Below are positions 1 through 58,545 of a stretch of 64,000 nt of DNA, piece after piece. Within the stretch, counting starts at the first letter, position 1, and each line of letters opens with the position of its first letter. The translations under genes and the position numbers were made by a program. The notes under the pieces are model-generated. The model saw only the letters and a list, made by a program, of their open reading frames with translations, was not told where the DNA came from and made no database searches. Source of the DNA: Undaria pinnatifida. Taxonomy: Eukaryota; Sar; Phaeophyceae; Laminariales; Alariaceae. The stretch covers positions 6,789,919-6,853,918 of the forward strand of contig JABAKD010000016.1 in the NCBI GenBank assembly GCA_012845835.1. Reading direction: 5' to 3'.

Positions 1-204
1 GGACGAGGAAAATAAAACATTGGCTGACGACACGTATATACGCACGACGTACCTGGTACTCTGTCTCGCCATCTGTCACCACAGAGCTTGTATCCCAATA
101 ATAGGACGAAGAATCAGCACGGACGCTGTATGTAGATGTAGAGGATGTCGACGGATAGAAATAGGGGTTTAATGTCAGTAACACGGGTATCAACCGAAAC
201 AAAA
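1..204. repeat. Diverged dispersed-repeat copy downstream of the gene
   Basis: The part at about 60-190 aligns, with divergence, to 37,985-38,160 and 51,885-52,055. Shared landmarks are a block like GAAGAATCAGCACGGACGCT, then a GTCG-rich stretch and GGTTTAATGT. A TACCWGGTA dyad lies at 50-58. No coding signal is seen. This would be the 3' flank of the minus-strand gene; I see no clear polyadenylation signal. Confidence 0.45.
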
Positions 205-3200
205 TCACTGACTGCCGACGTTAGCTGATCGCGGCCATATGGATGGCGTTGGGGTCGTGCGCAGTGGTGTGGACAATCTTGTTGTGCGATCGGTCATGTT
301 GTTCACGTCCATGGGACTAACAGTAGAGAGTGGTAAATGAAGCAAGAATGCCTCGTACTTGCAGCAGGCCATGCGCGACGTAAAATAAAAGAAGAAAGAA
401 AACCGTCGAAGATTTCGACACATACAGCAGCAACACTGAGTAGTCAATCGCACGAACAGGCTTACCTTACGTACAAACGACCGACGTACGTGCTAAGTAT
501 GTCACAACCTTCCCGCATGACCTGTCTCTTGTAAGAATACCTTATTTCGAAATCGTACCATCTCTAAGAATTTTGTCGCTTGGACGATACCTTGATGATA
601 CACGCACACCATTAACCAGTTAACTAATCAGCGGCGACTGTTAGCTCTGCGGCTATAGTGAGCATGTAACAAGATCAAAAACTGGGGTCCGTCTGGCTGT
701 TACGCCTAACCCTCAGATTAACATAAGGGTTACAGTCTGTTCCTTCAGCAATGCTAACCTCCCGGGACATCGCGCTCTTAAAAAAATAAATATGTACACA
801 AGATTACACAACTCAGGAGACTGACTGCATCCTACAATACTGTGCAGTGCAAAGGATGAAGCGACTGAGGAACTAACAGCACCCTATAACATCCTGCAAC
901 CTACTAAATAGGCTGCTGGAAGGAACACGCCGTCGTACGTACACGTACCGACGGTTTGATCCTTGTTTTTGTTACTCCTCTCCCGTCCCTCGGCTCCACC
1001 CCTACTTGGGCTGACACCACCGTGTTCAACCCCCCCTTCTAATCAGGAGAACCCTCAACCCCCCCCCCCCCCTCCCTCCCCCCCCCCCGCCCCTGCTCCT
1101 AACCATCAAAAGTCTCCTCCCCGCACCCCCATCTGTCCACACCCCACCACTCCCCCCCCTCCTCCCGAACAGCAGACCCCTCACCCGCCGCCGTCCACCG
1201 CGACGTCCCCAGCGGCGTCGCTCGAGGCCGAGCCGGGGCCCTTGTCCTCCCCGTCAGTGGCGGCGCCCTCGCTCGACGCCTTGTCGGCCACCGCCGACAT
1301 CGTCGCGGCCGCCATCCTCCACCGGACCAGGCGAACCGCCACCGCCCTCTTCTCCCTGACCGAGAAGAACCGCCCCAGCCGCTTGCAGCTTGCGTTCTTA
1401 CGCTGGGCGTTTGCTTCCTCCACCGACGCGCGATAGATTGCCCAGGCGCTGAAGTTGTGGAGGGCGTAGAACCCCTCGTGCTTCAGAAGCCTACCCCGGA
1501 TCTTGAACAGCCGGTTGAGCTTGATCCTCCGCACCTCGTTCCGGGCCTTTTTGAGGTGTTTCTTCGTCTGTCGCGCGTCCGTGACCATAGCTCTGCATGC
1601 GGCCTTCGTGCGCATCGCGTATACGAACGACCAGAGAAGCAGCAACACAACCTGATGGGGAGACACAAGACCATAAAAAAAAAACACGGAAACTTCGGTA
1701 AGGTAGGGGGGGGTGCACGAGCAACACGCGACACGGAAAATTGGGCAAGCTAAGGGCAAAAGGTGTGGGCGAGCGAGCACACAGAATTCAAGTCTTGGCA
1801 CAATACAAAATAATGCAGTATCAGGTGGTAGAAGGGGTGAGATTTAATGTACTTATAATATAAGTAAATTAAGGGGGTGGAACTTTGGTGGCTCATGCAA
1901 CTAACAGCGTAATAATTCACAATGCTTGACTTCCACCTCTAGGAAGGCGATAAATACTATACAACGCCCTGAACAGAATGGAGTCATACTAATTCAGCAC
2001 TGTAATAAATTCCCACGTCCGAGGCAGACGACTTAACACGGCAACAGCACGGCTATAAAGCAAGAATGTCTGCAAAACATGTACAAGTGAATCGCAGACC
2101 TATGATACGACACAACGCTGCCGTCGTAGAAATTACAACACTCGATGGTGCTGACGAAATATATCAGAAAACAGCATTTCACCCCTTGAAAGGCAGCAGA
2201 TTGGCCTTCATTGACACCAGACTACTAGGGTTTAGTGTGGAACACTCGGCCCAACGCCCTTGACAGCGCACGTTTTCCATTGCTTGAGATGTCTCTTGAT
2301 TTTTAACGTGTTGAAAGAGTATGAAATATGAACTAATATCTAGGAGGTGGTGAACTTAATTAAGTCATACTGTTTCAGAACATTACTCATTGTTGATGGT
2401 GGAGGGTGACTTTAATTCAACAGTGCGTAGACGTGTGAGAAGCTAGTAGCGTGAATTGGTTTGGGAATACGACGGTGCAAGATCAAGCGCTTCGCAGGAT
2501 ACAGGTGTCCGGCGTATGCTTGCCGGGGGAACGGCCTATCGCAACCGTACTCTTTTTAGACGATCATTGGTAGAAATCGAAGGGTCCGTCTTACTATTAT
2601 ACCCGTGCAGCCAACGTGACAAAAAACAAGATCCAGAAAATAGCTCACGGCTGGTTCAGATGATGGCCAGCAGGGTCGCGCGGTGCACCCAGAATCAACG
2701 CCACTGATATTTGCTGCCTCCTCCGTGTAACCGTTTTATTGCTGGAACAACTACCACACCAATTCCAAGTAGTTTACCCCCAAACACGAGGGTGTACTTC
2801 TAAACGGATGGAGATCTCCGCGCCGTCCGGACAGCCGAGACACCTCGGACACGGTACCATAGGGGTAGCACTTCTCGGCTAAGCGTCTTCTGACAGACGG
2901 AGCTCTAAACTACCCCCATAATAATGTTCCAATGTTCGAATGTCGGAATGTTCGAATACCATTTGTACCTTCCTATAAGTCTCGTTATATGGACTGTTCT
3001 CGGGTTGTTCTTTTGCTTGTCTTCACACCAGTCTTTGAGCGGGGTATAGAGCATAGAGGTCTTCAATATGGAAGCCTCTGAAAAATAGGGTGCACCCCTA
3101 TCATAGCACGCTTCCTCGGCGGTGGCTGACCTGTTCCTTCGGGTCTTTGCAGCAATGGATAGCTTCAGGTGCGCTTCAGGTGAGGCTACCAACGAGAGGT

Positions 3201-5420
3201 TAGACGATAACCCTTTCATTGATAGCTTTGCCTGGAGCGCACCTCAAGCCTGCAAGTAAGTCAGTGTTGCAAAGGCCCCGAGAACAAGGTCAGCCGCCGC
3301 CGACGACGCTGCCACGACTCACGCTGTCCCCATCCCTCTCTATTAGAGGTACGACGTGACCGCTGAGCTATGCAGGTGGAGCTGACTGCATCTAGCTCAG
3401 TGGTTTTGTGTATCTCTCATAAAGGCGCAATGCCGGGTCCGTTTGGTGGTTGAGTCTGGACCTCGGATTTGCTCAAGGGTTCCAATCCCCGTAGTCGACA
3501 CTGCCCCAAACAGGCGGGATTATGAAGCTTCTTTTTCCGTGGACGTGTGTACCATGGCTCTCGGATACTTTTAGTACTTCAGCAAGTTACATCAAACAAG
3601 AAAAACGTAAAGAACGACGTCGAGGGGATTGTGCTTCTTTTAGAGATACATCATAACCGCATGAACTTACCAGGTAACAGGTAGTGATTATGGTGGCTGA
3701 CTGCATATCTCCGTGCTTACGGTGTATAGATATCTGTAATGCTTCACCTGGAGCGTATCAGACGCCGACAAATAATCCAGTGCTGCACACGCCATAGTCT
3801 TCATCTCCACCGCCACCCAGCCGTACTCTGTCATGATCATCTCCACCTTCCCCACTGTCCAGTGGTACCCCGACGTTGAGGACGCGGCTACGTACCGCGC
3901 CATCGCCATCCCCTTCGCGCGAGAGAAGCTTGCCACGGTTCCGACGTTGTTCGCCATCCAGTTGTACCCCGGTGTCATCGTTTCCACCGTACCCGCCACC
4001 CATTTCTCCACCGACATCATGTGGCTGTTACATGCACGCCACAACGACACCAGCGGGGGGGGGGGGGGTGGCAGCGCGGCCGGGACAAGAATAGGGGGTC
4101 AGCAGGTAGATTAGATTGACGCTAAACCGGAAGTAGACACAGACGCGTGCTTACGATACGGCTAGCACTTTGACACCTTCTGGTCAAACCGTTTCTTGCT
4201 GGTTGTATGGTACCAATGCACTAAAACAAATAATGACTACACCACTCAAGATCGTTGCAATAGCGCGGTTTACTCACCCGTTGGCGCACGGCGCAACGGC
4301 CAGCGAACAGAGCATGTAGCAGGCCCCCTTTCGCGGGCTCTTGAAGCGTGTGGCCTCGCACCGCGTCACACAAAGGTCAAGACCGTCAGCCCCAGCGGTG
4401 CCCTCGGCCCCGCAGGTGGCCGCGGCGTTATCGGTCCTGGCATAGGCGTCGACCGGGTCCTTTTTCCTGGAGCCCTTGCCGTTGGCCACCATGAGAAGAG
4501 CGGTCCGGATGTCCTTGTCGGATGCAGTGTCGATGACATCTTGGATCCTGTGTGGTTAGTGTTGCGGCAGACCAAGGGCGAGACGCGTGTTGTATGAAAC
4601 TACAGCAGAACAGTAGTGCAGGGCATCCAACAAGAAACACAAGTACTGGTCCAGGCTGGGTTTCTTATCTGGGGGGGGGGGTGTTTTATTCTCGACGAAC
4701 TGCAGCATAGCGGCTCCAGGACTTCTGTATATGCCAGTCCGCTTTTCTTATTTTCCTGTTATAATTTTCTGCCATTATTAACATTACATTTGCCACCTGG
4801 CATGCTTGTTATGACGTGCCGTGCCCTGTACTATTATACGTGTAAATGAGATTGGAGCTAAATCTTGTGCAGGGGCTTCCCTTTCTTGGTTTCCCTTGGT
4901 TTCCTTCTACTGTATTTATGAGACTGCTTATGAGTGACCGACGTTAAAGCTCATGCTGCACATCATCGGGTGGCAAAACAAAACATTAATACTACTACTG
5001 TAACTACTGTAACTACTGCAACTACGGCCAGACGCGTGCTAAGGTAGTGGTACACCTGATTTTCTAAGGTTCCTCATTTGACGAGCTCTGCACATGACCG
5101 AGACACTTACTCTGAGAAATATGAAAGTGCAACCCGATGAAAAAAGAGAAACTTCAATACTTAATCCCAATCACTCACTCTTCGATTTCCAGGTTGGGCG
5201 TTCCAGGCCCATATGCGGCGAACGTCAGCCGGCATACAGCGGCCTCCAGCTTTTTGCTCTTGGCCAACCTCGACAAATCCTGCACCGTCCAAATATCCTC
5301 GACGGCGTCAGATTTGCCAACGATGAGCTGCCTCACGCCCGACACCAGGAGCCCGGAAGTGGCCGCGAAGACTCCGATCGAAAAGGCGACCGCTTTGTAG
5401 ATGACCACGTTGAGGATCAT
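205..5420 (-). CDS. Five-exon gene, predicted 455-aa membrane-associated protein of unknown function
   Basis: I do not recognise the family. Exons (minus strand): 5420-5179, 4547-4278, 4024-3748, 1651-1185, 316-205. Introns are 631, 253, 2,096 and 868 bp. All use GT-AG, with donors GTGAGT, GTGAGT, GTGAAG and GTGAGG, and phases match at all four junctions; the total is 1,368 nt ending in TGA. The start ATG (5420-5418) opens a hydrophobic stretch at residues ~3-28 (MILNVVIYKAVAFSIGVFAA), a signal peptide or anchor. Residues 82-170 hold a Cys cluster (CVTRC, then GACYMLCSLAVAPC). Residues 172-263 hold imperfect repeats around GYNWMANNVG, GYHWTVGKVE and YGWVAVEMKT. Exon 4 starts with a short hydrophobic run (VVLLLLWSFVY), then becomes strongly basic (TKKHLKKARNEVRRIKLNR), then acidic and Ser/Ala-rich. 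The tail is Thr/Pro-rich. Exons are GC-rich. Exon 4 could instead stop at the in-frame TGA (1183-1181). An extra exon in the 2.1-kb intron is possible. Confidence 0.72.
963..1180. repeat. C-rich low-complexity tract in intron 4
   Basis: Mostly C runs with interspersed T and A. It sits just past the exon 4 donor, inside the proposed last intron of the minus-strand gene. The plus-strand reading frame through it is Pro-rich and comes from composition. Confidence 0.6.
3388..3500 (+). other. tRNA-like relic with A- and B-box matches in intron 3
   Basis: TAGCTCAGTGG (~3,394) fits a pol III A box and GGGTTCCAATCCC (~3,479) fits a B box and T-arm. The flanks GACTGC and GTAGTC can pair as an acceptor stem. 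A CTCATAA stretch between them resembles an elongator tRNA-Met anticodon loop. The spacing (~85 nt between boxes) is long, and I could not draw a good anticodon stem, so this is more likely a SINE head or tRNA pseudogene than a working gene. Confidence 0.3.
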
Positions 5421-7180: not shown

Positions 7181-8165
7181 CGACAGCAGCGGTACCTTGT
7201 TTTTAGTGTCGAGAATAGTACATATCAGTAGAAAGTGTTCAAAACACGGGAGGGGGGGGTGGCTCGGGCGTCTGATTCGATTCTAATTCTGAAGAAGAAT
7301 CGATCGTGAATTTTGGGGGTGGATCATTCCCCATTTTTCTTCAGAATCGGAGAATCGGGAATGGTCGTGAATCTGATATTTTGAGTTAATCTTGTTCAAC
7401 CTTGTACGTAAAGCGTTGGCTTGGCACGGTGAAGCGCACAACAGTGGTGCCTGCAGTATCAGCCCAACCACCTTATCCGTGCATGACACGTATTATACGA
7501 AGTGAAAAAGTAGAACTACCGGCCGGTACATAGTATTATATCGGTTTTACCCAAGCAGGGAGAAATACATTGAAGGTCGCGGTCTCGATCCTCGATGTTC
7601 GATCTCGATTAATAATCGAAGAGGGTTCGTAGTTCGTACTGTAATCGGAGAAGTAGTTATCGATCTCGATTCCGGGAAAATCGAGAAAATCACGATTATG
7701 ACTGGGCAACTCGGTCTCGATCTCCAACGCTGTCGTTTTGCATTGTACCATACCACCATACCGGTACAACATGTGCGGTGGTTATTTCTTTGGTGAAATG
7801 TCTGCGGCGTGTTGCGATTTTGATGCAGCCACAGACAGGCTTTGCCATCTTGTCTTTCTTTACGACAAACACTTGGTCATATATACCTCCTCGTCAACAA
7901 CCGCGCAGGACGGGTGCCGGGGGAAGAGATATTGAAAGAGGTACTGTAATGCGGGAGGGACAGGTTACTCGTAATGAGTACCAGGTACAATGCAGGAAAC
8001 TCAATAAAAAATAGGAAGGTTGGCTTAAGCTGAGTTTCCTGGCTGAGAAAGAGTGCGTTCCACACTACCGGTACCTTCAGCACAACGGGTTCAGAAATTA
8101 TTATTTTCCGGTAAATCTCAGCTTGTCTTTCTTAATACCCTGTTTCTAGGTGTCCTGTACTGATT
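7181..8165. other. Intergenic stretch with ATCTCGAT-type short repeats
   Basis: 7,270-7,380 holds two near-inverted GAATCGATCGTGAAT-like and TTCAGAATCGG segments. 7,580-7,720 is peppered with ATCTCGAT, CGATTCC and TCGATCTC. TACCGGTA occurs at 7,759-7,766 and 8,066-8,073, and TACCAGGTA at 7,979-7,987. No gene is supported. Confidence 0.4.
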
Positions 8166-9699: not shown

Positions 9700-9705
9700 T
9701 AAGAT

Positions 9706-11312: not shown

Positions 11313-13634
11313 CTTAGCTTGGGCACCGACAGCGACACGGGAAACGGATGATGATGCGTAATGCGTCCCCGATGTTCGTGTTCCGTTGGACGGTTAGCAC
11401 AAAAGGTTTTGCATCCCGGGCCCCCGACTAAAATACCGCCGAACACACTGCTGTGAACTCCGTTGCCTCTCCAGCTGTTTTCTTGCGTTTCGAGCAGCCA
11501 ACATTAGATCATTACTATCTAAAGAAACTACTACTATTTACTGCTGCTGTATGCAGTGCTGCTGCTACGCGGATGGACGGGACCTCCCGTTTCGTCGAGC
11601 TAGTAGAAGGTGGGCAAAAAACAGGCCTTCTGAACACCCCTTAGAAAAAGTCAAATTCAGTAATGGTCCCTCTATTATTATAGTGCTGATTGAGTAGTGC
11701 TGGTTTCCCGCTATAGTCTAGTGCCTGTGCAATCGCTTGGCACAGATGTGGAAAACACTGCATTTTAAGAGTGTTGGCAGTATGCGGAGTGGTGCCGGTT
11801 GCCGTTATAGTACCGGTATGTCTGGCTGGCTTGTACCGGCGCTATAACATATACCTGGTAGAGGAATTACTATGATATGTATGTTTTATTATGTTTTATC
11901 TACAGCAGGTAATATATTCTGTAGAGTATGTGTAGACTACCCTCTGTTACGACGCAACATCGACAGAACGTATATACGTACGTATACCAGCTAACAGCAT
12001 CCGAACGACAGCCTTTGAAGACACCTGTTGTTATAGAATTTCAACAATCACGCGCCAAGCCCAAAGAACGTGGACAAAGCCGCACGTTGTGCGTTCCAAA
12101 AGGTGCCCTGAAGGTCTGCCTTTTACCGACGTTCTACGTGTATGTTACCAACCATACTACACGATGTCCACGAAACGGAAGGATTCCAAGCACGCGTGTA
12201 CTGCTCGTACTACTACTGCTTCTACTAAACTTATAATAACCCTATTCATACACACTACAGCAGCACTGTCTACTACCATTGCTGCTGTAGACATACTTGC
12301 AAACATTTCGGCAAGTAATTCGTCTTGAAATCACTTGATTAGAAGGCCCTGCTTCGCTCTCAGCGCTTCCACCCGGAACACGCCTGCCTAAACCCTTCTC
12401 GGATAACCTTCCCGACGGTTTTCTGCGTTCTTTGCTTTCTTTGTCTTCATCGTGTTCTTCGAGACCGCCCCTATACACTATTAACAGCTTCGAGACAAAA
12501 TCTCCAGCATTGCTTCAAGATAAATCTCCCCACGCTAGTTTCAATATGGTTTTTGCACACTAAAATCAAGATTTTTTTCTCAGAAAATCGAAAAACAGAA
12601 AAAAATGGATAATCAAAACTCGAGTCTGAATAAAACTAGGTCAAAACTGAGCAAGATCGACGTCCCCACACTAAATTTAGCATAAAAAAGCCCCAAAACA
12701 AAACTAAGTACAAAAAAAATGTCCGAGTAGGTACATACGTGCATGTTTATTTTGCACGCGAATCATATCATATGCAATGTTTTCGTAGACCACAAGTGCA
12801 CGTTTATTTTGCACCTGTTTCTTCTGCCCAAATCACAATAAAAACACATCCACCTGCAGCTTTTAGAGCTATAGCAAGCAGTATTAGCATGTTGCCGTCG
12901 AGTATGTTTCACAAGGACGGAACAGAACAGAACACTACAGCGCACTCAGCCCTCAAAGCCGTATAGTATGTACCGGAATGTACTTGTGCTGTTTGCTGTT
13001 TGCTGTGTATTCATGTTTTTGCCTTCGTCATTTGATTATTCGTCCCCGCTCGGTCCTCTTCATGCCCCCCCCCCCCCGCAAACTACACCCGTGGTGCTGA
13101 TCAGAACGTGACATCGCTAGCAAGCGCACAGCACAGCACAGCGCAATCAGCTTTGCATAAGTAGCTCTAGGCATGATCAAATCGCTAGTTTTACCAACTC
13201 ATGGACCTCTTCTTTCGGTCCCTTACACATTTTGTTGTATTCTTCCTTGAGCGAGTGTAGCGGGCGGCCGCCCGCGGAGCGAAGCCCTTGTAGTAGGTAC
13301 CAGGGGTGCCAGCACAGTTGTTTGGTCTAAAGGAAGATGACCCTTTCTGCTACTCAAGTATCATAGATAGGAAGAGCTATCAACAATAAAACGTGTATTG
13401 TCATGCCGCGCGCGTGTCGTATATGAGAAACACATGAATAACATGACAACTGAGCAATGCAGCCAGCCTCCTTCGTGTGGCAGATGCTGTCATCGTTCCT
13501 TTTTTTGACATGTTTTCCCTCGCAAGTCCCGAAGGGGTCGGACCGCTTTCTGCCAACGAAGTTTTGTTTAATGACGAGCAACAAGTGGCACTGTTGGCCG
13601 GCACCACCGACCTCCAACCTTTTTCTTATAAATT
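11313..13634. other. Long intergenic stretch, little structure
   Basis: Notable items: TACCGGTA (11,811-11,818), TACCTGGTA (11,852-11,860), a short duplicated CGTTTATTTTGCAC segment (12,742-12,815), a C run near 13,067-13,078, and the 14-bp palindrome CGGGCGGCCGCCCG (13,261-13,274). An open frame at 11,453-11,644 is short. No gene is supported. Confidence 0.4.
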
Positions 13635-14820: not shown

Positions 14821-14839
14821 CCCACCAAGAGTACCATTA

Positions 14840-16530: not shown

Positions 16531-19530
16531 GACTGCCGCCCGCGAAACTACTCCGATTGGTTCCGACACCGCCCCAGCTTTTGACGTTTGACAAACGTCA
16601 AGGCGTAATCACCGTCACTCAGCCTGTTAACTCGATCCTCACTAGGGCACACCACCTTGCTGACCCTCGTCCCCTCCTAATCTAACTTCTCACTGAGTTA
16701 CTACTGGTCTCGACGCGCCGCCACTACCTCGCATGTGTCAATATTTTATGTGGCTACAGACTAAAGGAGAACATTACTTTGCCTGTCTCGAGCTTCATGT
16801 ATCTACAGACGGACAGCGAAAGATACCCCTTCGTTTTCACCAATATTTATGTGTCTACAGACTACGAAAAGTGAACCCTTTTTTGTCTTCCAATGCCGTT
16901 TACTCCGTTGCTATCAGATACACCTCTCCGGGCTACCACCATCCGTCTATTCTACTGCATTCCTTCAAGCACTGTCGTTACTCTACTACATTGCCAAGCT
17001 GCTGTCATGACTCTACTGCATTCTTTCAAAAGCACCATCGTTTCATCTCAAACTTGCTGGGGCGTGCCAGCCAAGGAGGCCTATACCCTGTCCTCGTCGT
17101 TTGTAAATTGAGTCGTACAGGACACCCTCGGATAATCAAGACAAACCTCCGCGCGGCCAAGCTACGGTGATAGTTTTGTCCCTTTTAGGGGTCTTTTGTA
17201 GCGAGTCAGAGCCACGCGGGCGAGTGGCTACCTCTTGTGCTTTTCGCGATAAGCATCGCCATGGCATCGTTGCTGTTTATTTCGCTGCGCCAATAAAAGT
17301 TTTTAAAGTCCGTTTTTGAACGACCTGAACTCTTTAGTGCAGGTGAGGGTATAATATTGCATTATGTATAATACTACGTAAAATACTATAAAGTGTAATA
17401 CTATAATACCGTAGCCTCGGTCGCGCTCTGTCACGACCACCATCTGCTTCTCGGCAAACCTACGCGCGTCCATATATATATTCGTCCTGACGGTCTCCAT
17501 AGCGGCCGCGCGCGTGAGTTTGACACCATCCTCCCAGTCTCAAGGGTCTCACGGGGCAATCAGGAAGTATTCGCGCCATTTATACCATCTCGTGGCTAGT
17601 CATCTCCCTGTAACCGGCATCGCCAACGGCGCTGACCACATTGACCGTGTCCCTACCACACCTTGTTGGAAAGTTTCGCATCAAAATTAGACGCACCCTT
17701 GTCACGAGATTCAGGTTTTCATCGCGCCAAAAAACAAGGACCCCTTTCGAATTTCGTGAAGCGCCCGCCGATCACCAACGCATACAAGTTAATAACAGCT
17801 AGGTACTCTTATTCTTCGTCGCGATTTTCTACCACAGCTAAATTCTATGTTATACGGGCCACTACGGCAATCGCCGCATGGGCATGTGCCCTCCGCGCCG
17901 CTTGCCTCCAAAGGTATCCCCTCGACATTAGCATTGCTCGGTTTCTTCTTCCCTACTCTAGCTCCGTCCCGATGTCCCGATTTTTTGTCGGAACAATGGA
18001 ATGACCTAGGCAGTTCTTGTGTTTCGAACCCTCCGGCTACGTAGACGCGTATCTGGGCATCAAATAAACACATAATTCCTCCCCGTCACTCCAACAATGG
18101 TGGCGCAACGGCGGTGGGAGTGCCAAACCTAACAGGTACCAGGTACCAATTATTAACACCTTCGATTAACCTCTTTGGGTCTCATGTAAAACAAAAACCA
18201 AACGAGGGGGGGGATCCTATCATCTGTCTAGGAAAAGCGAGCAGCAGTGCGAGAATCGCTACGCTGCGCGCGTGCCGCTCAGCTCCTTGCATTGCCCTTT
18301 GGACACATGGCCCACCCCCGCTGCCTGGGCTCTGCTTAGTGTTGCTGGTAATCGTTAATTTTAGTATCCTGTGTTTTTCTCTGCAGTCCCGATCTTAGAA
18401 CCTTAAAACATGTTATCATGTTCGCATATATAAAGTAGTATACACCGCACGCAGGGGATGTGTGTTCATTTGCATCACTCACCAGTTTGTTTCATTGTCC
18501 GTATATACGTGTGTCGGCAAATAGAAATGGGTCTCGACGCTAAAGTATATATTATTGTCCGGTGTAAAATACCTATGTGGGTGCAATGTGCCTGATGTTA
18601 TCGGCGAATAGTTGGCCACCGCCCGGAGCAACGGCAACATGTTTTTCCTGGTTGTGGATGAGCGTATTTGCGGAGGTGACGCATACTTCTCATTGGCTAT
18701 TAATAGTATACATTGCTGAAATGCTGGTAATGGTCGCGCCAAACCAACGCCGGATTATTTTTTTTACATTACACATTTCTACCTGCTTTTCTTTTCACAC
18801 CAGTTATGATATTACACTGCGTTTATATAGTGATTAGATATGTCGTGTTGAGCTCGCCTTCAACAACCACAACGCACTTGGTGTCAACGAAGTACACACG
18901 TACAAATGTGCACACGTACATGAGCAGCCTTCCTCTCTATGTTTACACGCATGAGCCGTTTTCCTGTTTACGCTTCATTGGATTTGAACCACCTAGCAGT
19001 AGCGGCGACCGCACAAAATATCATAGTAACCTGTCCATTTTGGCTTTGTTATCTACAACAAATTCGCCACAGACCTCCAGCACCGCCGCTCGTTCCTACC
19101 AGCTACTATACGACGTCACTGCTTGCCATTGACGCGACGGTGCACACGCCCACCCGTAGGTACGAGTAGCCACAAAGATAAGCTGTGGCGGTGTTAGCGG
19201 TTAAACGACCGTTTTCGAGGCTCATAACCTGTTATGGATGTAAAATTTGCTTACGCATTGACCAAGAGGAGCTCGCTGGCACACCGTTGTGCAAGTAGAA
19301 GGTTCAGAAAGGTTGATATCAACTTGTGGTCCAAACTTTAGACAACGATGGATCAGGCGGAGCAGTGAAAATAATAAGGGGAGGAGGACGATGATAGAGC
19401 GACAGAGGTGGGCGTACAGTATGGCCATCTTCGCGTTCTCGCGACTTGTTGTGGTAGCCTCGGTTATTCGTTCTGAAGTTCGAACAAATTCCTTGCGCTA
19501 GCCTTTCAGGTCCCATGTTACGGCCCCTGC
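16531..19530. other. Long intergenic stretch
   Basis: 16,738-16,880 holds three diverged ~50-bp units containing TATGTGNCTACAGAC. 17,350-17,415 has short AT-rich direct repeats (TAATACTATAA). TACCAGGTA is at 18,137-18,145. The remaining open frames are short and unconvincing. Confidence 0.4.
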
Positions 19531-22720: not shown

Positions 22721-23300
22721 GTACTTTTTACTACATACTAATAAAAAAAAATACCATGGTACTAGCCAATACGCGCATATCATGTGTACGTATACTCACG
22801 TATGTGCCTATATATACTCCGTACCCAGGTACAGTACAGTGTGCCGGCGCGTATAGCATGTGTATTTTCGTACAGATGATACCAGGTATAACATAATAAT
22901 AGGCACCTTCTGAGAAACTTCGGCGGGACGTTGCCAGAGCCACATGTTGGTAGCAGCTATTTGGCCGCGAGCAAGTATCGAGGAACATTACGTTGTGAGT
23001 CGGCCAGTACAACGTCCCGTGCGGCACATACGTACAGCATACAACGTAGCCGAGAAGCGTTAATCTTACCGAACTCAAGAGAGGATTGTAATGTGCATAT
23101 CCACGTTTAGGATACTCGCGTGCGCAGTTGCGCGCGGCAGTAGTGACTGCACGCCATATACAACAGGCTACGCATTGCACACTGCACACTGCTAGCGTCT
23201 ACAAAGCGGTGCCTACCAGGTATGCTTATTGTATCCTGCTGAGCATTGATTGGTTGATAGACTGCGTGTCCCAAATGAGATAGCACCTCTCACATGGTCC
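22721..23300. other. Intergenic stretch with two TACCWGGTA dyads
   Basis: TACCAGGTA at 22,880-22,888 and at 23,214-23,222. A 152-codon open frame on the minus strand crosses the stretch but has no recognisable features. Confidence 0.4.
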
Positions 23301-24560: not shown

Positions 24561-25010
24561 ACGTGTTATACGGTAACCTCTCCACCGGAATAATGCTTCT
24601 GCTGCCGGCGGCATTTTTTACGTCGAAATGACGTTAGAACACCGGCCCCGTGAAAATTTCCCGCTTTCCGCCGGGCGGCTGCGGGAAAATTCCCGGATGG
24701 TTGACCCCCGCAGAGCAAGGTCCTCTACGCCAATGTTCCGCCCGATATGCCTGTCCGGAAAGCCGCGCGTAGATGCGTTCCGGTTCAATTGTCAAGGCAC
24801 AGTACCGAAGCCTTCTGTCTGTGGGTTAGACTTTTGACACGCTATCGTTGGGTCGTCTACCAGGTAAACTGCAAGCGTTGCGTTAATCCCGATCAACGAC
24901 ATCGAGGAATTGTCCCACCCGACCAAATTAACGAAGCGTATATAATCCTTACATAAAAAACACCGTTTCCTGCCCCCGCCGCGTTCCCTGAAACAACGTC
25001 TTGACGCCTT
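24561..25010. other. Intergenic stretch
   Basis: Includes a GGGAAAATTCCCG hairpin-like segment (24,683-24,696) and TACCAGGTA (24,858-24,866). No gene is supported. Confidence 0.4.
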
Positions 25011-26900: not shown

Positions 26901-27525
26901 CCCTTTTTCCCCATACACTGGGAGCTCTGTGCCGAAAATATACTGCTATCAGTATAAGACTTACCCTAGGCTGGGTAAATCTTATGTTGCTATTTTACCC
27001 TGGGAGGTAAGTAGGTAGCACCTTCACACCATGTTACAGACCGACAGCTTAGGGCTAACACTGATCCTAACCCAACCCCTGACCGCAACCCTTCGCAGAA
27101 ACAAAGGAGAAAATGATTCTCCCCTGCTTGCCGAACCCTCCCCGCTTGTCGAACCCCCCTGCTACCCCATACACCGGGAGCCACGCACGGTATACCAGGT
27201 ATATCGTTCGAAAACATAGGCTTACCCTTGGCCGGGTAACCGATCGACCCTTTGCCCTGTTAGCTCAGTAGGTACCACCTGCACAATATGGTGTAGACTG
27301 AGAGCTTAGCGTTAGGATTAGGGCTAGAACCCTAACCCTAATCCTGACCCTCACGCTTCGTAGAAGCAGGGGAATAGATGCGTTTTTCCTTCTTGTCGGA
27401 CCTCCCTTTCCTCCCGTACATCCGGAGTCACGTACGGTATATATTGTTCGAACGCTTAGGTTTACCCTGGGCTGGGTAACCGATCGATCTTTTACCCTGG
27501 TAGCTCAGTAGGTAAAACCCGTCTT
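26900..27525 (+). repeat. ~250-bp tandem repeat, about 2.5 units, with A-box-like motif
   Basis: Units begin near 26,921, 27,177 and 27,424 (GGAGYYACG or GGAGCTC). Each runs into a TTACCCT, GGGTAACCGATCGA segment, then TAGCTCAGTAGGT (27,261 and 27,501; degenerate near 27,003), a good pol III A-box match. No B box is seen. Units 1-2 are followed by a telomere-like stretch (27,050-27,080 and 27,303-27,345). Unit 2 alone has the TACCAGGTA dyad (27,193-27,201). A distant relative lies at 57,895-57,955. Confidence 0.7.
27303..27345. repeat. Telomere-like repeats in inverted arrangement
   Basis: GTTAGGATTAGGG, a short spacer, then CCCTAACCCTAATCC: TTAGGG-type units meet CCCTAA-type units head to head and can form a hairpin of ~14 bp. 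Too short to be a telomere; it resembles an interstitial relic. Confidence 0.5.
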
Positions 27526-31510: not shown

Positions 31511-32416
31511 GTGCACCCACTTTAAAGACCATCCCGTGACAAGCCAATTTGGGTGGTCTTTTCTGTCTTATCTCTACCATGGTCTTATCTATACGATGGT
31601 TAGTTTTTACAAACTTCAAACATGATCCCATGCTAATTCCGAGTAGTTTTTCCTTCGTGACAAGCCGATGTACCTGGTATTATCTCTAATATGGTCTTAA
31701 ACCGGATGCTAATAAAATGGATACACCACTGCATACGATACTCCCGAAGACTCTGCCTAACTGAAACATGGTGAACCCTCAGAGACACCAGAATTTTGAG
31801 TTGAGCCGTGCTACGGCAGGGGTGGCAGTTTCGAGCTCAACTATTTCTCGCGGCCGGAGCTTCTTAATCCTTTTGCCACTGCAAGTCTTATCCAACACAA
31901 AATCCAAGTAGATTGTCCGAAAAATCGTGGGAACAGTTCTAAAACGGGGAACGGAGGAGCTACCCATATATCGGGGATCTGATGCGTTTCACGTTACACC
32001 TCTGGTATCGTATATGAATATACCTAGACCAGGGAGTGTGAGTAGGGCTTACCATAGTCCACAGACACATGCTCCGGTAAAGGTGCATTTCTTTTTTCTG
32101 AAGATCCTTACTCGAGGAGCTGATTAAAAAAAAAACGAAAGTCTACCCCAATGAAAAATCTCATGTCCTAGGGAATAAACGAAAAAAAAAAGTAAAAAAA
32201 CGAAAATTTCTTTCTAGCGATATTGGGTTGAAGAGTCCCGAAATTCAGGGGAAAAAATGGCCAAAAAGTGCTACCCCTATCGTAGAAGGCGTCGTTCCTC
32301 GAATGTCTGGTGTTGGGCGACATACAGAACTCCTCAGATTCATGGTGAGCCTCAGGAAGATCAGGTGCCGCCCCTACCGAGGCATGAGTCGGCTGAGAAA
32401 AATACTCAAAACACTG
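31511..32416. other. Intergenic stretch
   Basis: Holds two diverged TCGTGACAAGCC segments (31,535 and 31,657), a TACCTGGTA dyad (31,671-31,679) and A-rich runs (32,127-32,205). No gene is supported. Confidence 0.4.
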
Positions 32417-32706: not shown

Positions 32707-33189
32707 GAACCTACCCTGCAAACCTCCAATGTTGTGCATGATAGAAAGCTTTTCGACAGCTTGATATCAGCCTGTACACAATGACCTCTTCTCGCGTGGT
32801 ATGGTGCCGGAAGTTGTGAGGCCGATTTTGGCGGTTTTGACTGAAACAATACTGCTCTATGGACGAACTGAGCTGATCCGAAATGTGCGCCGGAAAGCCG
32901 TCGCTGTTCACACGGGGTTCCGAATGTGCCCATTTAGACGGTGGGGTTATTTGAGTCGACTCTTGTAACAGTGTTATGGAGTGGTGTCGTGCCTATTACG
33001 GAGATCCGCTGTTTGCAAGATGAATTAATAAACAAAAAAGGGGGCACAAAAACACCCGTCTTTGTTTATTTGCCTTTGACGCAAGTGTATTTTTTTGGCT
33101 GGTCTTACCGGGTAAACACAGCCTTAATCGAACACAGCCGTAGCGTAGAAGAGCTCGCCTGAAAGGTGGCCATACTTTCTTTTTTGTGT

Positions 33190-37985: not shown

Positions 37986-38160
37986 GTACCCGGTACACTA
38001 GCACTTCACTTGCATTACCTTGATTAATTGCGGTTGTTGTGGGTTTCTCTGCCTCACAGTCTGTGACCACGTCACTTGCATCTCTCTAGGATGAAGAATC
38101 AGTCACGGACACTAGGTGTACTGGTGTCGTTGGGTAGAAACAACGGTTTAATGTGAAGGC
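37985..38160 (+). repeat. Dispersed repeat, copy adjoining the satellite
   Basis: It aligns with 51,885-52,055 (GTACCCGGTACRCTAGCA, TTCACTTG, CCTTGATTAATTGCG, TCTCACAGTCT, GATGAAGAATCAG, GTACTGRTGTCGTTGGGTAG) and distantly with 60-190. Confidence 0.65.
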
Positions 38161-48640: not shown

Positions 48641-49820
48641 AATAAACACCTATACGCAGTTGATATCACGTCATTATCTTTCTGACCATCCATGACGTAG
48701 TTTTCAATTCTTCCCCCCCCCCCCCCCCCCCCCGTCCAACGCCCCCTCTTTTCCAACCACCCGCACGATCGCCTAGACCTAGCACCACGCGTATAACAAG
48801 CTGCTACATATCTTTGATCTCACAGCCGAAGTGTACTTGAATATTATTTGTGACCTAAACCTCCTAAAAAATCTCCCCCCCCCCCTCTTGCTCTCCCTTA
48901 CTCAAACGCCCCACCAAATATCGAAATCCGCCAGATTAATAAACACTTCACGCACAGGATATCACCTCATTATCTTTCTAGAGCCATCCATGCCGCTGTG
49001 TCCCCCCCCCCCCCCCTCCCGCCTCGAACGCCCCCTTCTTCCCCATCACCCGCACCATCGCCTAGACCTAGCACCACACGTATAACAAACCCCTCACCTA
49101 AAGCCCTTCCTTCCCCCCCCCCCCCCCCCCCCTCCCAACCCATCCCAACCCCACCCCCTCGAACACCCCACCCTCTCTTTACTCACTGATTGTACGACTT
49201 ACCCCAGGATATACATGATCAACTGATGCATTATTTCCAAAACCGTCACATTTATCCCCTCAAAATAATGTATAGTTTCCACGCACATATTGAGCTGCCC
49301 CACACGCCTTCCCCCCCGCCCCAACCCCCCCCCCCTCCTCCCCCCCCAATAATATACTGGTGCCAAAACCGTCAGATTTATCCCCTTGAAATGATTTATA
49401 GCTTACATGCACAAATTGCCCCCCCTTCCCCCCCCCCCCCCTCCAAACCCGCTCGCTTTTGATCAAAACCAGCCCCCCACGTCCTTAAAAACTCCGCCCC
49501 CCCCCCCTCACCGGTTATTCGACTTACAAGATTCACTTGATAAAAGGATACATTTCCCTTCACAGCTGTCAGATTTCGTCCCCCTCACACACGGGTTTTA
49601 TAGTTTCCGCGCACAGACTGACTAAAATCACCCTGTTGACCCTGATAGCTACACTGTAGTTGTACGGGGAGTCGCCGACCTATATCCTTAATGAGGACAC
49701 ACAACTCGTAATGCGCGCGATCGGAGTATCACACACAGCTTGCAAAGATGATTTTCGACGAAATCTTCGATCTCACAGCTGGATGGAGTGTATTTTCATT
49801 CTTTATAATATAAATGGACG
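48640..49820 (-). repeat. R1 foldback family, arm with internal duplication
   Basis: It reads outward to the AT-rich end at ~49,800. Landmarks: CATTATCTTTCTAGAGCCATCC, a long C run, CCTAGACCTAGCACCACACG, CGTCACATTTATCCCCTC, CGTCAGATTTATCCCCTTG, AGCTGTCAGATTTCGTCCCC, GGAGTCGCCGACC. The outer part is present twice (48,659-48,806 and 48,957-49,095). One C run reaches ~22 nt (48,712-48,733). Confidence 0.75.
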
Positions 49821-50968: not shown

Positions 50969-51307
50969 CCTTAACAACAGGGTGATCTTGGATCGGAATA
51001 CCCCCACTGTACTGCTGTAGTTACTAGCTGGTGCAGCTTGTCTGAAAAGCTGTTCTCGTACTGCATCAGGCATAAAACAGCAGCAGCACCTCGAAGAGAA
51101 CTGCAAGTCACAAGATACACATACATGTTTGTACCGGTACTACAGGGAAGACAGGAGTGCACATCGCAGGTCAAACTGCCCGAGCGTGATCAGGCACTAC
51201 GCGAGAAGTACGCATACATCAAGAAGCGTTGGCTGACAGTGTGTAGGGGAGCTGCCCACTACGTACATGCCAGGGTCATCAGCGGTTGTAGGAGGCCCAA
51301 TACGCTG
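50969..51307. other. Intergenic stretch
   Basis: A 113-codon plus-strand frame (51,038-51,379) has mixed composition but no motif. TACCGGTA is at 51,134-51,141. Confidence 0.3.
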
Positions 51308-51884: not shown

Positions 51885-52055
51885 TTGTGGTCTCGTACCC
51901 GGTACGCTAGCATTTCACTTGCTCTACCTTGATTAATTGCGATTGTTTGGTTTACTCTGTCTCACAGTCTTTGACCACATACGTTGTATATTCTGTACGA
52001 TGAAGAATCAGCACGGGCACTGGGTGTACTGATGTCGTTGGGTAGGGAACGGCCC
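51885..52055 (+). repeat. Dispersed repeat, partner of 37,985-38,160
   Basis: CTCGTACCCGGTACGCTAGC to GTACTGATGTCGTTGGGTAG is well conserved between the copies. Confidence 0.65.
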
Positions 52056-52565: not shown

Positions 52566-52905
52566 TAGGGCAGACGATTGAAATCGGTGAACCACAACCA
52601 TTGCGCGCCACCGTGCGGTACAGCAGAATACGCCCAGGTTTTTTACCCCGATCCGCGACGCTGATTGGTCAGCTCAGCCTCGTACCGGTTTTTGACACCA
52701 ACTCCATGCGGTACATCGTACCGTGGCTTTTCGGCTCGGCCGTCATCGCTTTCTGATGTGACCCATACCTCTTTCTGTCGGAAAATATACCATACGGATC
52801 GACTTTGCCCGAGGCTCTTCACGTCCGCACCCTTTCAAATTCCGACCGAATCTCAACCATGTGCGCTACGTCATGTAGCATGCATAGGACTGCGCGCTGT
52901 CATAT
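52566..52905 (+). repeat. Inverted-pair repeat V, copy 1
   Basis: It matches the reverse complement of 54,385-54,700 at ~88% by eye: CATTGCGCGCCACCGTGCGG, GTACATCGTACCGTGGCT, GAAAATATACCATRCGGA, CAAATTCCGACCGAATCTC. The two copies face each other 1.5 kb apart. Confidence 0.75.
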
Positions 52906-53059
52906 TTCGGATCCCTTTAGAGCAATCAACACCCCTTCCGCACACAGCACGAACTGCTGCTCAAACATAGACAGCTCGCACACCCCACGTGCACGTATGT
53001 ATGTATGAATGGCGGAGAAAGGGGTGAGACAAAGCGACAAAGGGGGAGTGACAGTCCCG

Positions 53060-53270
53060 CTACACGCGCACGACCCTCTTGGACGACACACACACCACCT
53101 CGCGTCCGCCTTGCCCATTCGCACACCGTATTCTGTTGAAACCCTCGCTACCGATGGCGCCATCATCGAACCTGACGATGCACACACGCCGCTCTCTCGT
53201 CCGCCTTGCGTATTCTTACACCGCATTCTGTGGAAATCCACGCAGGGAGAGGACGCCACCACTTGAACTT
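53060..53270 (+). repeat. Short tandem duplication
   Basis: Two diverged ~120-bp units sharing CGTCCGCCTTGC, ATTC, CACCGYATTCTGT and GAAAYCC. Open in several frames, with no recognised product. Confidence 0.45.
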
Positions 53271-53354
53271 GGTAGTTGTAAGAACTTGGGCTCACTTGAG
53301 ATGCCCGGAAAATAACCTATAATACACTACCCATACACTTAAATGTGACCGTAC

Positions 53355-54070
53355 TCCGAGGGGGGGAAATGCGTGGTTGGTCGGTGTTGGGGAGCGTGCC
53401 CGTCATGGGTTCCGTTGTCTTTGATTGGTCTCTCCTCATGGCTCGCTGGATAGACTCGAAAGTTTGTGCATTATTTCCCTATATAGAATACTTAAAGACT
53501 GACATAACGGGGCTGCAGGTTAGCGCAGGGTAGAGCAGGGTAGTGCAGGGTAGTGAGATGAGGGGCGTCCTCCTTGTCCCATCATCGTCGCCTACATTAC
53601 CGCCTATCTATGATGGCCTTGACGTGAATATGACATCTAATATCACGTGGTTTCACCTCAACCATGACATGGTTTCACGTCGAATCTATAAACTACGCTT
53701 CTACGGAGGGCGGTCCATTACATTAGGCCACCCTGAATAGTCGTAGATGCAGATCACTTGGCAATCAAAGGATGTCAACTAAACATCCAAAATTGGAAAG
53801 GGGATCGAAGATGCGGCTATTCGAAACAAACGAACATGAGGCTATATATTCCCCCACACCTCGTAATAATGAGGCTGAAATGCCTCATTGCAAGAAATGC
53901 AACCCTATGACGGAGCTCACAACCGTGAGAGCTCGAGAAAATAAAAGGAAAGTACCCACGGTATACCAGTAGCAATCGGCCTACGAAAACACAAAGGGCG
54001 CGGCCACTGAGCGCAAGGATGCGAAGGGAGTCAAAGAGGAAGGTATAGACGCGGAAACAATGTCAGAAAA
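53355..54070 (+). repeat. WZ repeat, most complete copy
   Basis: The W half (53,355-53,735) is the reverse complement of 42,858-43,215. The Z half (53,735-54,070) is the reverse complement of 19,905-20,255. Features are a GCAGGGTAG micro-tandem (53,526-53,556), the AACCATGACATGGTT hairpin (53,658-53,672) and a GGAGCTCACAACCGTGAGAGCTC inverted motif (53,913-53,935). Non-coding; termini are not defined. Confidence 0.7.
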
Positions 54071-54329
54071 TAAGAATGGAACACTTGTCACGCTGTGACG
54101 GCCAGAAAAACTTACGGCCTGAAGCGAAGTGCCGGAGGGGCGGGCGGTAGGTCCATTTGCCGACCGATAAAATATGCCTCGGATTCAAAATTAAGAAGAA
54201 TGATGACCAAAAAAAAATCCTCAAGTGATGGCGCCATCTGTATTATTAATAGTCGTCCACAACTGGTTATGTACGAAACAACGGCTTTTTCGACCGTTGA
54301 AAAGTAGACCTTGAAATAATCGGGAGCAT

Positions 54330-54395
54330 ATTACATGTAGTCCTCTACATGGCCTTCTACATGCACTATTGTAGCCATGCATTCTACATGACGTG
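54330..54395. repeat. CTACATG short repeats and hairpin
   Basis: CTACATG or TCTACATG recurs five times within 65 bp, with CATGTAG complements, next to the end of repeat V copy 2. Confidence 0.6.
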
Positions 54396-54700
54396 GCGCT
54401 CATGGTTGAGATTCGGTCGGAATTTGAAAGGGCGCGGGGCATGAAGAGCCACGGGCAAAGTCGGTCCGCATGGTATATTTTCCGGCAGAAAGCGGTATGG
54501 GTCACGTCAGAAAGCGGTGACGGCCGAGCTGAAGAGCCACGGTACGATGTACCGCAAGGGGTTGGTGTCAGAAACCGGTACGAGGCTGAGTTGACCAATC
54601 GGCGTCGCAGATCGGGGCCAAAAACCTAGGTGTATTCTGCTGTACCGCACGGTGGCGCGCAATGATTTCGGTATACCGCTTTCTGTCGTCTGCCCATGAT
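54385..54700 (-). repeat. Inverted-pair repeat V, copy 2
   Basis: Inverted partner of 52,566-52,905. Confidence 0.75.
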
Positions 54701-54959
54701 AGTATGTGCGTTCGCCGATTGATTATGATATTCGTATTATTATTCCTATAATATATACTTCTATCAAAGATGAAATCGCGTGGAAACCAAACCAGGAAAT
54801 CAATAATATTATCACGTATGTCATGTATGTATGTGTATTTTATGATGATATGTGTGTGCTCTTAACATTGAACTGTTATTTTTGCCCATCGACATGAAGC
54901 ACCCCCAGACTGAGCGTGTTGTTTCGAGACAGGAAGCTTTTTGGTACAAACTAAGAGAC

Positions 54960-55740
54960 AGAGAAGATATCATTATCTTTCGAGAGCCATCCATGCCGCT
55001 GTGTCCCCCCCCCCCCCCCCGCCTCGAACGCCCCCTTCTTCCCCATCACCCGCACCTTCGCCTAGATCTAGCACCACACGTATAACAAACCCCTCACCTA
55101 AAGCCGTCCCCCCCCCCCCCCCCCCGCCCCCACCCCCCCCCCTCCCCCCCCAACCCATCCCAACCCCACCCCCTCGAACACTCCACCCTCTCTTTACTCA
55201 CTGATTGTACGAATTACCCCAGGATATACATGATAAACTGGTGTATTATTTCCAAAAATGTCACATTTATCCCCTCAAAATAATGTATACCTGGTAGTTT
55301 CCAGGCACATATTGAGCTGCCCCCCCCCCCCCCCCCCCCCTGCCCCCAATAATATACTGGTGCCAAAACCGTCAGATTTATCCCCTCGAAAGGATTTATA
55401 GCTTACATGCACAAATTGCCCTTTCCCCCCCCCCCCCCCCCGCCCCCCTCCAAACCCGCTCGCTTTTGATCAAAACCAGGCCCCCCTTTCCCTTCACAGC
55501 TGTCAGATTTTGTCCCCCTCAGAAACGGGTTTTATAGTTTCCGCGCACAGACTGACTAAAATCATCCTGTTGACCCTGATAGCTACACTGTAGTTGTAAG
55601 GGGAGTCGCCGACCTATATCCTTAATGAGGACACACAACTCGTAATGCGCGCGATCGGAGTATCACACACAGCTTGCAAATATGGGTTTCGACGAAATCT
55701 TCGATCTCACAGCTGGAGTGTATTTTCATTTTTATATTAT
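54960..55740 (-). repeat. R1 foldback family, arm with TACCTGGTA insertion
   Basis: Same order of blocks as 58,618-59,490, with C runs at 55,006, 55,107, 55,320 and 55,425. The stretch matching 59,165-59,250 is deleted. Relative to 49,268 and 58,946 it has a 7-bp insertion that creates TACCTGGTA at 55,288-55,296. It ends at an AT-rich palindromic junction (55,722-55,760). Confidence 0.8.
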
Positions 55741-56420
55741 AATATAAAATATATTTCAAAAAATGAAATATACCATTCAGCTGTGGGACCGACCAAAAAT
55801 GTTTTTGTGATCAAAACCCACCTTTGCAAGCTGCGTAACTGCGTGTGATACTTCGAATGCGCGTGTAACGGGGCAGTGTGTATACCCTCGTGAAGGGTGC
55901 AACAGGTCGGTGACTCCCCTGATAATAATGCCAGGGTCAACAGGACTACTAAGACGTCCAGCCTTGTTCTGCGCACGGAAACTGTATAACCCGCATTGAG
56001 GGGGACAAAACCAGACATCTGTCTGTGGAATTCAGTATGCATAAACCATTGTTACTATAGTGTGAGTTAACTTTTGGAGTGGGCTTGTTGGATCTACCGT
56101 GTTTGTACGCAAGTTCCGGTGTACTCCCTGTATAATATTTAGAAAAACGAAAAAATATACTTCAGCCGTGAGATCGACCATAGCATGAAGGTTTTTGATC
56201 AAAACTCAGCTTTGCAAGCTGCGTGTGATACTTCGATCGCACGTGTTACGGGGTGTGCATACCCTCGTGAAGGACACAGGCCGGTGACTCTCCTGCTAAG
56301 TCCAGGGTCAACAGGACTACTCGTAAGACGTTCAGCCTTGTTCTGTGCGCGGAAACTGTAAAACCCGCATCGAGGGGGGCGAAACCAGACATCTGTGAAA
56401 TTCAGTATGCACGAAACAAA
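55741..56420 (+). repeat. Two diverged R1 half-units, plus orientation
   Basis: 55,765-56,040 and 56,155-56,410 both hold TTTGCAAGCTGCGT, GATACTTCGA, CAGGGTCAACAGGACTACT, GCGCGGAAACTGTA, AACCCGCAT and ACCAGACATCTGT. They are closer to each other than to other R1 copies, a subfamily. The first forms the opposite arm of the 54,960-55,740 foldback. Confidence 0.7.
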
Positions 56421-56509
56421 ATTGTTATATTGTGAGTTAACTTTTGGATTAGGCTACTTCTTGGTGGGTCTACCGGGTTCGTACGCAAGGTCCTGTGTAC
56501 TCCCTGTGT

Positions 56510-57590
56510 ACTATAAAAATTAAAATACACTCCAGCTGTGAGATCGAAGATTTTGTCGAAACTCATCTTTGCAAGCTGTGTGTGATACTCCGATCGCGCG
56601 TATTACGGGTTGTGTGTCCTCATTAAGGATATAGGTCGGTGACTCCCCTTGGAACTTCAGTGTAGCTATCAGGGTCAACAGGGTGATGTTATTCAGTCTG
56701 TGCGCGGAAACAATAAAACCCGTTTTTGAGGGTGACAAAATCTGACACCTGTGAAAGGAAATGCATCAGTTTATCAAGTGTATCCTGTAAGTCGTATAAC
56801 CGGTGAGGGGAGGGCAGTTTATTATGTATATTCTGTGAGTTGTACAACCAGTGAGGAGAGGGCGGAGTGTTTCAGGGGGTGGGTGGGTGGGGGGCAAAAG
56901 GGTTTTAAACAGCTTCAGGTCGAATAGATGTAGGGGTTTGCTATACGCGTGGTGCTAGGTCTAGGTGATGGTGCGGGTGGTGGGGAAGGAGGGGGCGTTG
57001 GGGGCGGGGCTGGGGCGGCATGAATTGGAGCAGCGGCATGGGTGGCTTTAGAAAGATAATGAGGTGATTTCGATGTTGGGTGGGGCGTTTGAGCAAGGGG
57101 GAGCGGATGAAAAAAGGGGGGGGGGGGGGGGGGCTTCGGGGGGAGGGGGAAGGGGTATTTAACAGGTTTAGGTCGCATATATGTAGGGGCTTGCTGTACG
57201 CGTGGTGCTAGGTCTAGTCGATGGTGCGGGTGGTGGGGACGGAGGGGGCGTTGGGGGGGGGGAGGGCTTTGGGGGGGGGAGGGGGGATGAATTAAAGCTA
57301 CGTCATGGATGGCTAGAAAGATAATGACGTGTTATCAATTGCGTAGAAGTGTTTATTACTCTAGCCGATTTCGATTTTAGGTGGGTCGTTCGAACAAGAG
57401 AGAAGGGGGGGAAAAAGAAGGGGGGAGGGGGGGGGGCGGGGGGCGGGGGGCGGGGGGCGGGCGGCGGGCGGCGGGCGGGACACTTTAATATGTGCGCGGA
57501 AACTGTACATCCTTGAACGGGACAAATCTGATGGCTGTAGCAAGAATACATCCCTTTATTATATCACCTGCATTGTATTGTTTATTATTC
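56510..57590 (+). repeat. R1 foldback family, long arm with repeated outer block
   Basis: It starts ACTCCAGCTGTGAGATCGAA and ends beyond 57,540. The outer block (GTGGTGCTAGGTCTAG, GGTGCGGGTGGTGGGG, GAAAGATAATGA) is present twice (56,950-57,090 and 57,200-57,340). G runs at 57,117-57,133 and 57,256-57,287 and a (GGGGGGC)n-like stretch at 57,421-57,478 are the complement of the C runs in minus-oriented copies. Confidence 0.75.
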
Positions 57591-58545
57591 TAGCAGATTT
57601 GACGTTATAGCTAAGTAATTTGTTGTACGAGTACATGATTCGCAAGATAGAACATTTCAATCGATAGGTACAACCATGCAATTGCCATGATTTTACCGTG
57701 CCGGTGTGGGGCTCTGACATCGCTCATTGTAAGAAAGAGATACATATTGCAAAATACAACAGGCGAGGTGATGTGGTCATGCAACGTCACCACCATTGAG
57801 CACGAGGGGAAGAAGTGCAAATATATTATATACCGTATATATCGATATGTTTTAGGATAAGTTATATACGTTCATTATACATTTGAAGGCTTTTCGTGGG
57901 CGGGGTAATCGATCGGCCTTTCATCTAATACCCCGGCAGGCCAGCAGATAACACGTTCACATCCGTTAGATTATTCCTTAGACTAATCCACCGTTTCCTG
58001 CGCCAACCATAATAATGTCGAAAAAGCCGTGAATAGCTCTCGTTTCACGAATCTTCCTTGTTCCTTTTCTTTCCGTTGGATCGCGGATCGCGGATCGTGA
58101 TTTCAGTATCTCATATATCTCACCCCCCCCCCCCTGCAAACAATTAAGAAACAAAGACATCATCTTTCACTAACGAAAACAAAATTGGCGCTAAAAGCTC
58201 ACCCAACCATTGCAAGGGAACAAATACATAACATAAACAACCTTTGTCAAGGATGTACGCCTGTCGCGCGAGTCCGCCATTCCAACCTTTACTTTGCAGA
58301 CTATGATGACCTCTATAGACTACCTCTGTTCTGTAGACTATTCTGGAGAACAGATCGATCCTCCCTGTGCGTTTAAAATTCTAGAAAAAAATATTCGGGC
58401 TGTTGTTTACGGAGTACTTCTTTTTTTGCATTTATTTGCTTCCCCTTCCGAGAGGGCTTCTCTCACACGAAAAAAAAACACACTTGACTGAAAAAAATGA
58501 GGTCAAGTTCAGAAAATTGAGCAAGATATAAATACATACCTGGTA
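57591..58545. other. Intergenic stretch
   Basis: 57,895-57,955 resembles the 250-bp tandem unit at 27.2 kb (GGGTAATCGATCG). TACCTGGTA is at 58,537-58,545, abutting the next R1 copy. No gene is supported. Confidence 0.4.

Follow-up and report, generated by a model that had tools for sequence, protein, structure and literature searches.

Why does one nine-base dyad, TACCWGGTA, occur at 12 places in a single stretch of 64,000 nt of the genome of the brown alga Undaria pinnatifida? The stretch, in the following called the window, comprises positions 6,789,919 to 6,853,918 of contig JABAKD010000016.1, has a G+C content near 0.49 and contains few long open frames. The initial annotation had interpreted the dyad as a possible excision footprint of an unseen transposon with a TA target. 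On the basis of motif counts, paralogous repeats and a target signature we consider it probable that TACCWGGTA is the excision footprint, here also called scar, of a cut-and-paste DNA element which inserts at TA. Neither chance nor a site for a bound protein explains the motif; repeated insertion at TA with imperfect excision does.

Excess of TACCWGGTA in the window and in the genome

All 12 positions annotated for TACCWGGTA in the window proved to be exact. The mean in 100 dinucleotide shuffles was 0.56 and none of the shuffles (0/100) reached 12 sites, which confirms the annotated excess. With any base in the centre (TACCNGGTA) the window contains 15 sites compared with 0.97 expected from the arms, and the three sites in addition to the W forms are located at 33106, 37987 and 51896. 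The shorter form TACCGGTA had been annotated as well and is present four times, although the fourth copy lies at 51132 and not at 51134; with a mean of 0.82 and 1/100 shuffles reaching four, its excess alone is weak.

For the genome-wide count 511,146,479 bases on 68 contigs were searched, and TACCWGGTA reversed served as control word. The motif was found 85,263 times and the control word 3,475 times, which corresponds to a ratio of about 24.5 and a surplus of about 82,000. The lack of a genome-wide excess, named in the initial annotation as evidence that would speak against a footprint, can be dismissed. Further analyses used stretches sampled from the same genome (labelled L009, L010 and so on), in total 222 kb or 0.04% of the genome, partly chosen and partly short pieces. 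The window together with 11 stretches chosen by coordinate (174 kb) formed the unbiased sample; it contained 32 sites or 1.8 per 10 kb, and the genome count amounts to 1.7 per 10 kb. When the 9-mers of a 172-kb sample were ranked (words with at least 4 occurrences, short-period repeats excluded), TACCWGGTA showed the highest excess, with 37 occurrences where an order-3 Markov model predicts 1.13.

A compositional bias or a few repeat families could make such a word common, and about half of the Undaria genome consists of repeats (54.0%, as given in a passage of PMC7058681). The shuffles and the Markov model argue against this explanation, and so does the reversed word, which is 24.5 times rarer. 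In addition, the 12 W sites of the window have unrelated flanks in the sample: neither among the matches listed in a self-comparison of the window nor in a +/-60 search of the 222 kb was a paralog found that bears the motif at the same place. Within that sample the 12 sites are therefore not copies of one repeat, and we regard a bias or a few repeat families as already refuted, with practically no probability left.

Filled and empty sites in paralogous repeats

Filled and empty sites were compared between paralogous repeats within one genome. Repeat families at window positions 37337-37749 and 48700-60060 were used as paralogs. Their direct and inverted repeats are densely packed and contain long runs of C or G, and many copies are 70-96% alike.

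At 55288..55296 the scar TACCTGGTA is part of the sequence ATGTA-TACCTGG-TAGTTTCC (ATGTATACCTGGTAGTTTCC), which reads ATGTATAGTTTCC in two paralogs of the window (58893..59005, 88%; 49213..49322, 83%) and in one paralog of L010. The scar TACCAGGTA at 27193..27201 lies in GGTATACCAGGTATAT, and its empty paralog at 27392..27499 (76% identity, 116 columns) reads GGTATATAT, a difference of 7 nt. At L009:2715 exactly seven bases are absent from two tandem copies with 93-94% identity, and at L019:3377 seven bases are absent from one paralog in a short match (56 columns, E 1.9e-5). A further unit, TACATGG at L020:1197, is one base off and forms the second unit nested in an older scar, which the sister copies (697 and 952) also carry.

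The filled and the empty copies thus differ by the change from TA to TA-CCWGG-TA, which is exactly 7 nt (5 nt and a second TA); the empty copy has only one TA. Clean 7-nt absences with target-site duplication were found at four sites, plus the nested fifth case, in unrelated contexts; this is the presence/absence difference between paralogous repeats for which the initial annotation had suggested a search. Among the paralogs of this genome it speaks against the second counter-evidence named there, a motif fixed at all orthologous sites and lacking a clean 5-7-bp polymorphism. In the survey of 66 TACCNGGTA sites, a paralog crossed the site in 12 cases, of which 4 were clean, 1 nested and 7 others. 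When the gaps between paralogs were scanned without selection, 277 had a length of 3-30 nt, including 14 of 7 nt; the ACCAGGT class occurred twice and was less frequent than a 5-nt class that stems from one repeat family.

Window position 50905 shows another kind of TA insertion between paralogs, with TATCA-TACGAAG-TATG against TATCATATG.

Target signature and probable repeated strikes

In the unbiased sample 20 of the 64 flanks have a TA exactly 7 bp from the struck TA (background 0.077, p 3.8e-8). A T stands at position +6 on 39/64 flanks (background 0.266) and an A at position +7 on 29/64 (background 0.261). Genome-wide, 5,877 of the 85,263 scars have a TA at this spacing on both sides, compared with 14 of 3,475 in the control, for which the whole pattern was read backwards, so that its outer letters are AT. 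Struck TAs therefore show a symmetric preference for TA-N5-TA-N5-TA, and the preference for a pyrimidine just outside is weaker. A palindromic target preference is what an integrating enzyme with two-fold symmetry gives.

The tandem double TACCWGGTACCWGGTA is far commoner than chance, with 3,654 copies in the genome against 2 of the control and about 14 expected if the 85,263 places were random. Ten places with doubles were displayed and one with identical letters was dropped; in the remaining 9 distinct doubles the W orientation was the same in 5 and opposite in 4. The opposite orientations argue against tandem duplication as the only source, since this would give the same orientation only. 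The excess of doubles suggests that the TA of an older scar may be struck again. Such re-use is expected, because each scar, bearing TA-N5-TA with a C beside the TA, would make half of a preferred new target. In a viral contig collection the tandem double was present in 9 stretches, which we take to be probably chance.

The palindromic form of the motif, its dispersal and its strong over-representation would also fit a protein-binding site, selected or spread by copying, which had been offered as an alternative in the initial annotation. As the sole cause a binding site is refuted by the paralogs, between which the motif is cleanly inserted as 7 nt and the TA duplicated, also inside repeats. 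Moreover, the flank signature matches a struck TA, and the tandem units occur in either W orientation. The window sites have unrelated flanks, with which the motif was therefore not copied. We consider a binding site highly improbable. The excision footprint is supported, and the target signature and the re-use of scars add independent support to it; the transposon itself is something we infer.

Proposed origin of the motif

As a footprint, TACCWGGTA could arise as follows. The ends of the element would begin with CCWGG, and staggered cuts would leave five terminal bases on each flank. As CC and GG are self-complementary, the flanks could pair C:G, C:G, with a W:W mismatch, G:C and G:C, and repair of the mismatch to A or T would give TACCAGGTA or TACCTGGTA, hence almost a single product. 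The enzyme would belong to the IS630-Tc1-mariner/pogo group, because the TA is duplicated, and the plentiful DDE_1 transposases of this genome are the foremost candidates. In line with this assignment, we found a TA target and TA duplication, and the genome also encodes transposases of this group. A process of this kind is known; new are its scale, a single product of 5 nt, a target phased by TA and tandem scars that would seed themselves.

A more far-reaching picture is a hit-and-run transposon that strikes TA-N5-TA-N5-TA, has self-annealing CCWGG ends and over a long time has left about 80,000 scars and 3,600 doubles, seeding its own targets, so that scars and not copies are its main trace. 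It would act as a mutation process of 7 bp built into the genome. We put this forward tentatively, as a picture that may or may not hold in all its parts.

CCWGG is also the EcoRII/Dcm site, and a restriction-like nuclease making an EcoRII-type cut at CCWGG in both element ends, followed by religation, could leave the same scar: two cut CCWGG sites religated give exactly TA-CCWGG-TA. A viral precedent has been published, as a passage of PMC3627910 reports TA-flanked mariner elements of algal viruses with an EcoRII-C-like nuclease and a cytosine methylase. The EcoRII-C domain gave 0 matches in the Undaria genome, which is weak evidence because the controls were silent too, and a DDE transposase would give the same scar without a nuclease. 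A nuclease scar is therefore very unlikely in our view.

Search for the source element

DDE_1 (PF03184) is the transposase of the pogo/Tigger type, a TA-targeting group. It gave 82 matches in the genome, with a best E value of 1.3e-30 and many open frames; a few of these matches are pieces of one copy. DDE_3 gave 8 matches, 7 of them over the cut-off. Four DDE_3 elements (L032-L035) are TA-bounded, 1.75-1.86 kb long and have the terminal inverted repeat TATGGTCCGTGCACAAC with a DDE_3 fragment inside; they resemble the proposed element in their TA-bounded inverted repeats, whereas their ends are TGGTCCGTGCACAAC and a CCWGG scar is not expected from them. L036 contains a relative that has a cysteine-rich region and whose open frame extends over at least 676 amino acids (open at the edge of the locus). 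Transposase_1 gave 0 genome matches, with silent controls as well. Extensions of TACCWGG that are not scars showed by eye no common new end, only repeats already known, and among the 74 large insertions between paralogs listed as candidates none had CCWGG at both ends by eye.

Several observations weigh against an excision footprint of the proposed kind. A paired-end search detected no full-length TACCWGG...CCWGGTA element in the 222 kb, so that the TA-flanked elements with CCW ends proposed in the initial annotation were not recovered there. The sole perfect-looking pair of ends, at L010 4242-5826, was rejected, since it consists of two inverted copies of a tRNA-like repeat and this repeat continues outside the motif. 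The DDE_3 elements were also rejected as source, as the four that were read (L032-L035) begin with TGGTCC after the TA and not with CCWGG. Plain filling-in of two 5-nt ends would give TACCWGGCCWGGTA, which is rare (22 versus 2 genome-wide); TACCWWGGTA, the 3-nt fill-in product, occurs twice in the 222 kb. At 7 of the 12 sites crossed by a paralog the motif is common to both copies or decayed, or the gap is untidy. The copies L020:697 and 952 show a broken or a 9-nt gap towards distant paralogs (window 57168/56885), which misfits one clean event. The preference for a pyrimidine at +1 is weak (46/64 flanks in the unbiased sample, background 0.578, p 0.014). Finally, the well-studied Tc1/mariner elements retain 2-3 nt, shorter than the 5 nt found here. 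For Sleeping Beauty and mariner 3 nt are given in a passage of PMC7827188.

That no long element with these ends was found in the 222 kb would also fit a self-standing micro-insertion, which had been named in the initial annotation: an enzyme would add a 5-nt CCWGG unit, or very short DNA, at TA, and no long element would ever have existed. The nearly invariant product fits this idea, and the paralogs, the target signature and the doubles fit it equally well. We know of no enzyme that inserts a constant 5-mer with target duplication. In contrast, TA-duplicating transposases that leave scars are common, and this genome holds many of them. A micro-insertion is thus less likely than a transposon, and unlikely on the whole.

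For a transposon as the source, the failure to see an intact copy sets a limit. Our own arithmetic from 0 copies in the 222 kb, a sample partly chosen and partly of short pieces, gives a rough 95% bound of under about 7,000 intact CCWGG-ended copies in the genome. Scars therefore probably outnumber intact copies by ten or more.

The tRNA-like repeat, which has a box of the GGTTCGAATCC type and holds TACCAGGCTCGAGG, occurs at L010 4150-5920, at window positions 60259-60309 and 62461-62503 and at L016 1277-1319. Two of its copies in L010 are oriented towards each other at a distance of about 1.5 kb and thereby resemble a transposon. A tRNA scan with the bacterial code gave no hits.

Relation to known transposons

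The TA target and its duplication resemble Sleeping Beauty and the Tc1/mariner elements, and so would a scar that consists of terminal bases of the element and is enclosed by two TAs. The Sleeping Beauty footprint has the form TAC(A/T)GTA, with a central A:A mismatch, and TA-CC(A/T)GG-TA would be its 5-nt analogue. According to a passage of PMC7827188 the 3-nt 3' overhang of Sleeping Beauty equals the footprint. The Undaria motif differs from these systems in its 5 nt instead of 2-3, its near-unique product, its about 82,000 copies, its TA-N5-TA-N5-TA target and its unseen source.

Plant Stowaway elements, miniature inverted-repeat transposable elements (MITEs) of mariner type, duplicate TA, are non-autonomous and reach high copy numbers. 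The duplication of TA is shared by these elements and the MITEs of Ectocarpus, whereas the abundant form in Undaria is the scar and not the element. For Ectocarpus almost 12,000 Mariner-Tc1 copies are reported in a passage of PMC12477816; the words "footprint" and "excision" are absent from the main text of that paper. Judged on titles and the openings of abstracts, none of the papers among the hits listed in the literature searches describes TACCWGGTA as a scar.

Excision scars are usually studied singly at marked loci. With about 80,000 near-identical scars in one assembly, sequence alone allows one to measure how targets are chosen, what repair yields, how the rate changes over time and how genes are affected. 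If scars outnumber elements, counts of elements badly understate how strongly a transposon mutates its host. Insertions of 7 bp, one in about 6 kb, would contribute notably to the small variants of this lineage, and TACCWGGTA might wrongly be taken for a regulatory motif. To our knowledge, the positive feedback of a scar that makes a better target has not been described.

Age of the scars

In the 172-kb sample the 24 one-mismatch forms with a change off centre amount to 61 in total compared with about 28 expected, part of them being repeat copies such as three TACCAGGAA in one array of L009. TACCSGGTA was found at 5 places against 0.84 expected. The many scars decayed by one base point to a long-lasting activity. 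The description of the element as active or recently active in the initial annotation is therefore only partly upheld.

Sites in the window and other repeats

The strand of all listed window sites is given as ".". Besides the two sites with empty paralogs, exact matches to TACCAGGTA are located at 3668..3676, 7979..7987 (GTACCAGGTAC), 18137..18145 (inside GGTACCAGGTACC), 22880..22888, 23214..23222 and 24858..24866, and exact matches to TACCTGGTA at 11852..11860 and 31671..31679. Two further copies of TACCTGGTA adjoin repeats: at 50..58, also an exact match, the repeat matches (38047.., 51953..) start at 59 and 57, at the right edge of the scar, and at 58537..58545 the homology to the repeat at 48888.. 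starts at 58550, just to the right. The search with any centre base added TACCGGGTA at 33106..33114, probably a decayed scar with a change of the centre from W to S, and TACCCGGTA at 37987..37995, probably an old scar, where a repeat common to 51896 has its left edge. The paralog of the latter, TACCCGGTA at 51896..51904, is partly kept at L011 9203. The four copies of TACCGGTA at 7759..7766, 8066..8073, 11811..11818 and 51132..51139 are possible variant scars with weak support.

A comparison of ten open frames of the window with Pfam revealed no family. Other TA-framed dyads, TAAGGCTTA, TAGCWGCTA, TACASTGTA and TAGWCTA, show a smaller excess in the window and the sample and might be scars of other elements. 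In the 172-kb sample the 12-bp palindrome TTTTGATCAAAA is present at 8 places, which amounts to 16 counts for the two strands together, with 0.09 expected. Window positions 15481-16449 contain degenerate blocks of a 32-bp repeat with 69-80% matches, several of them in broken pieces.

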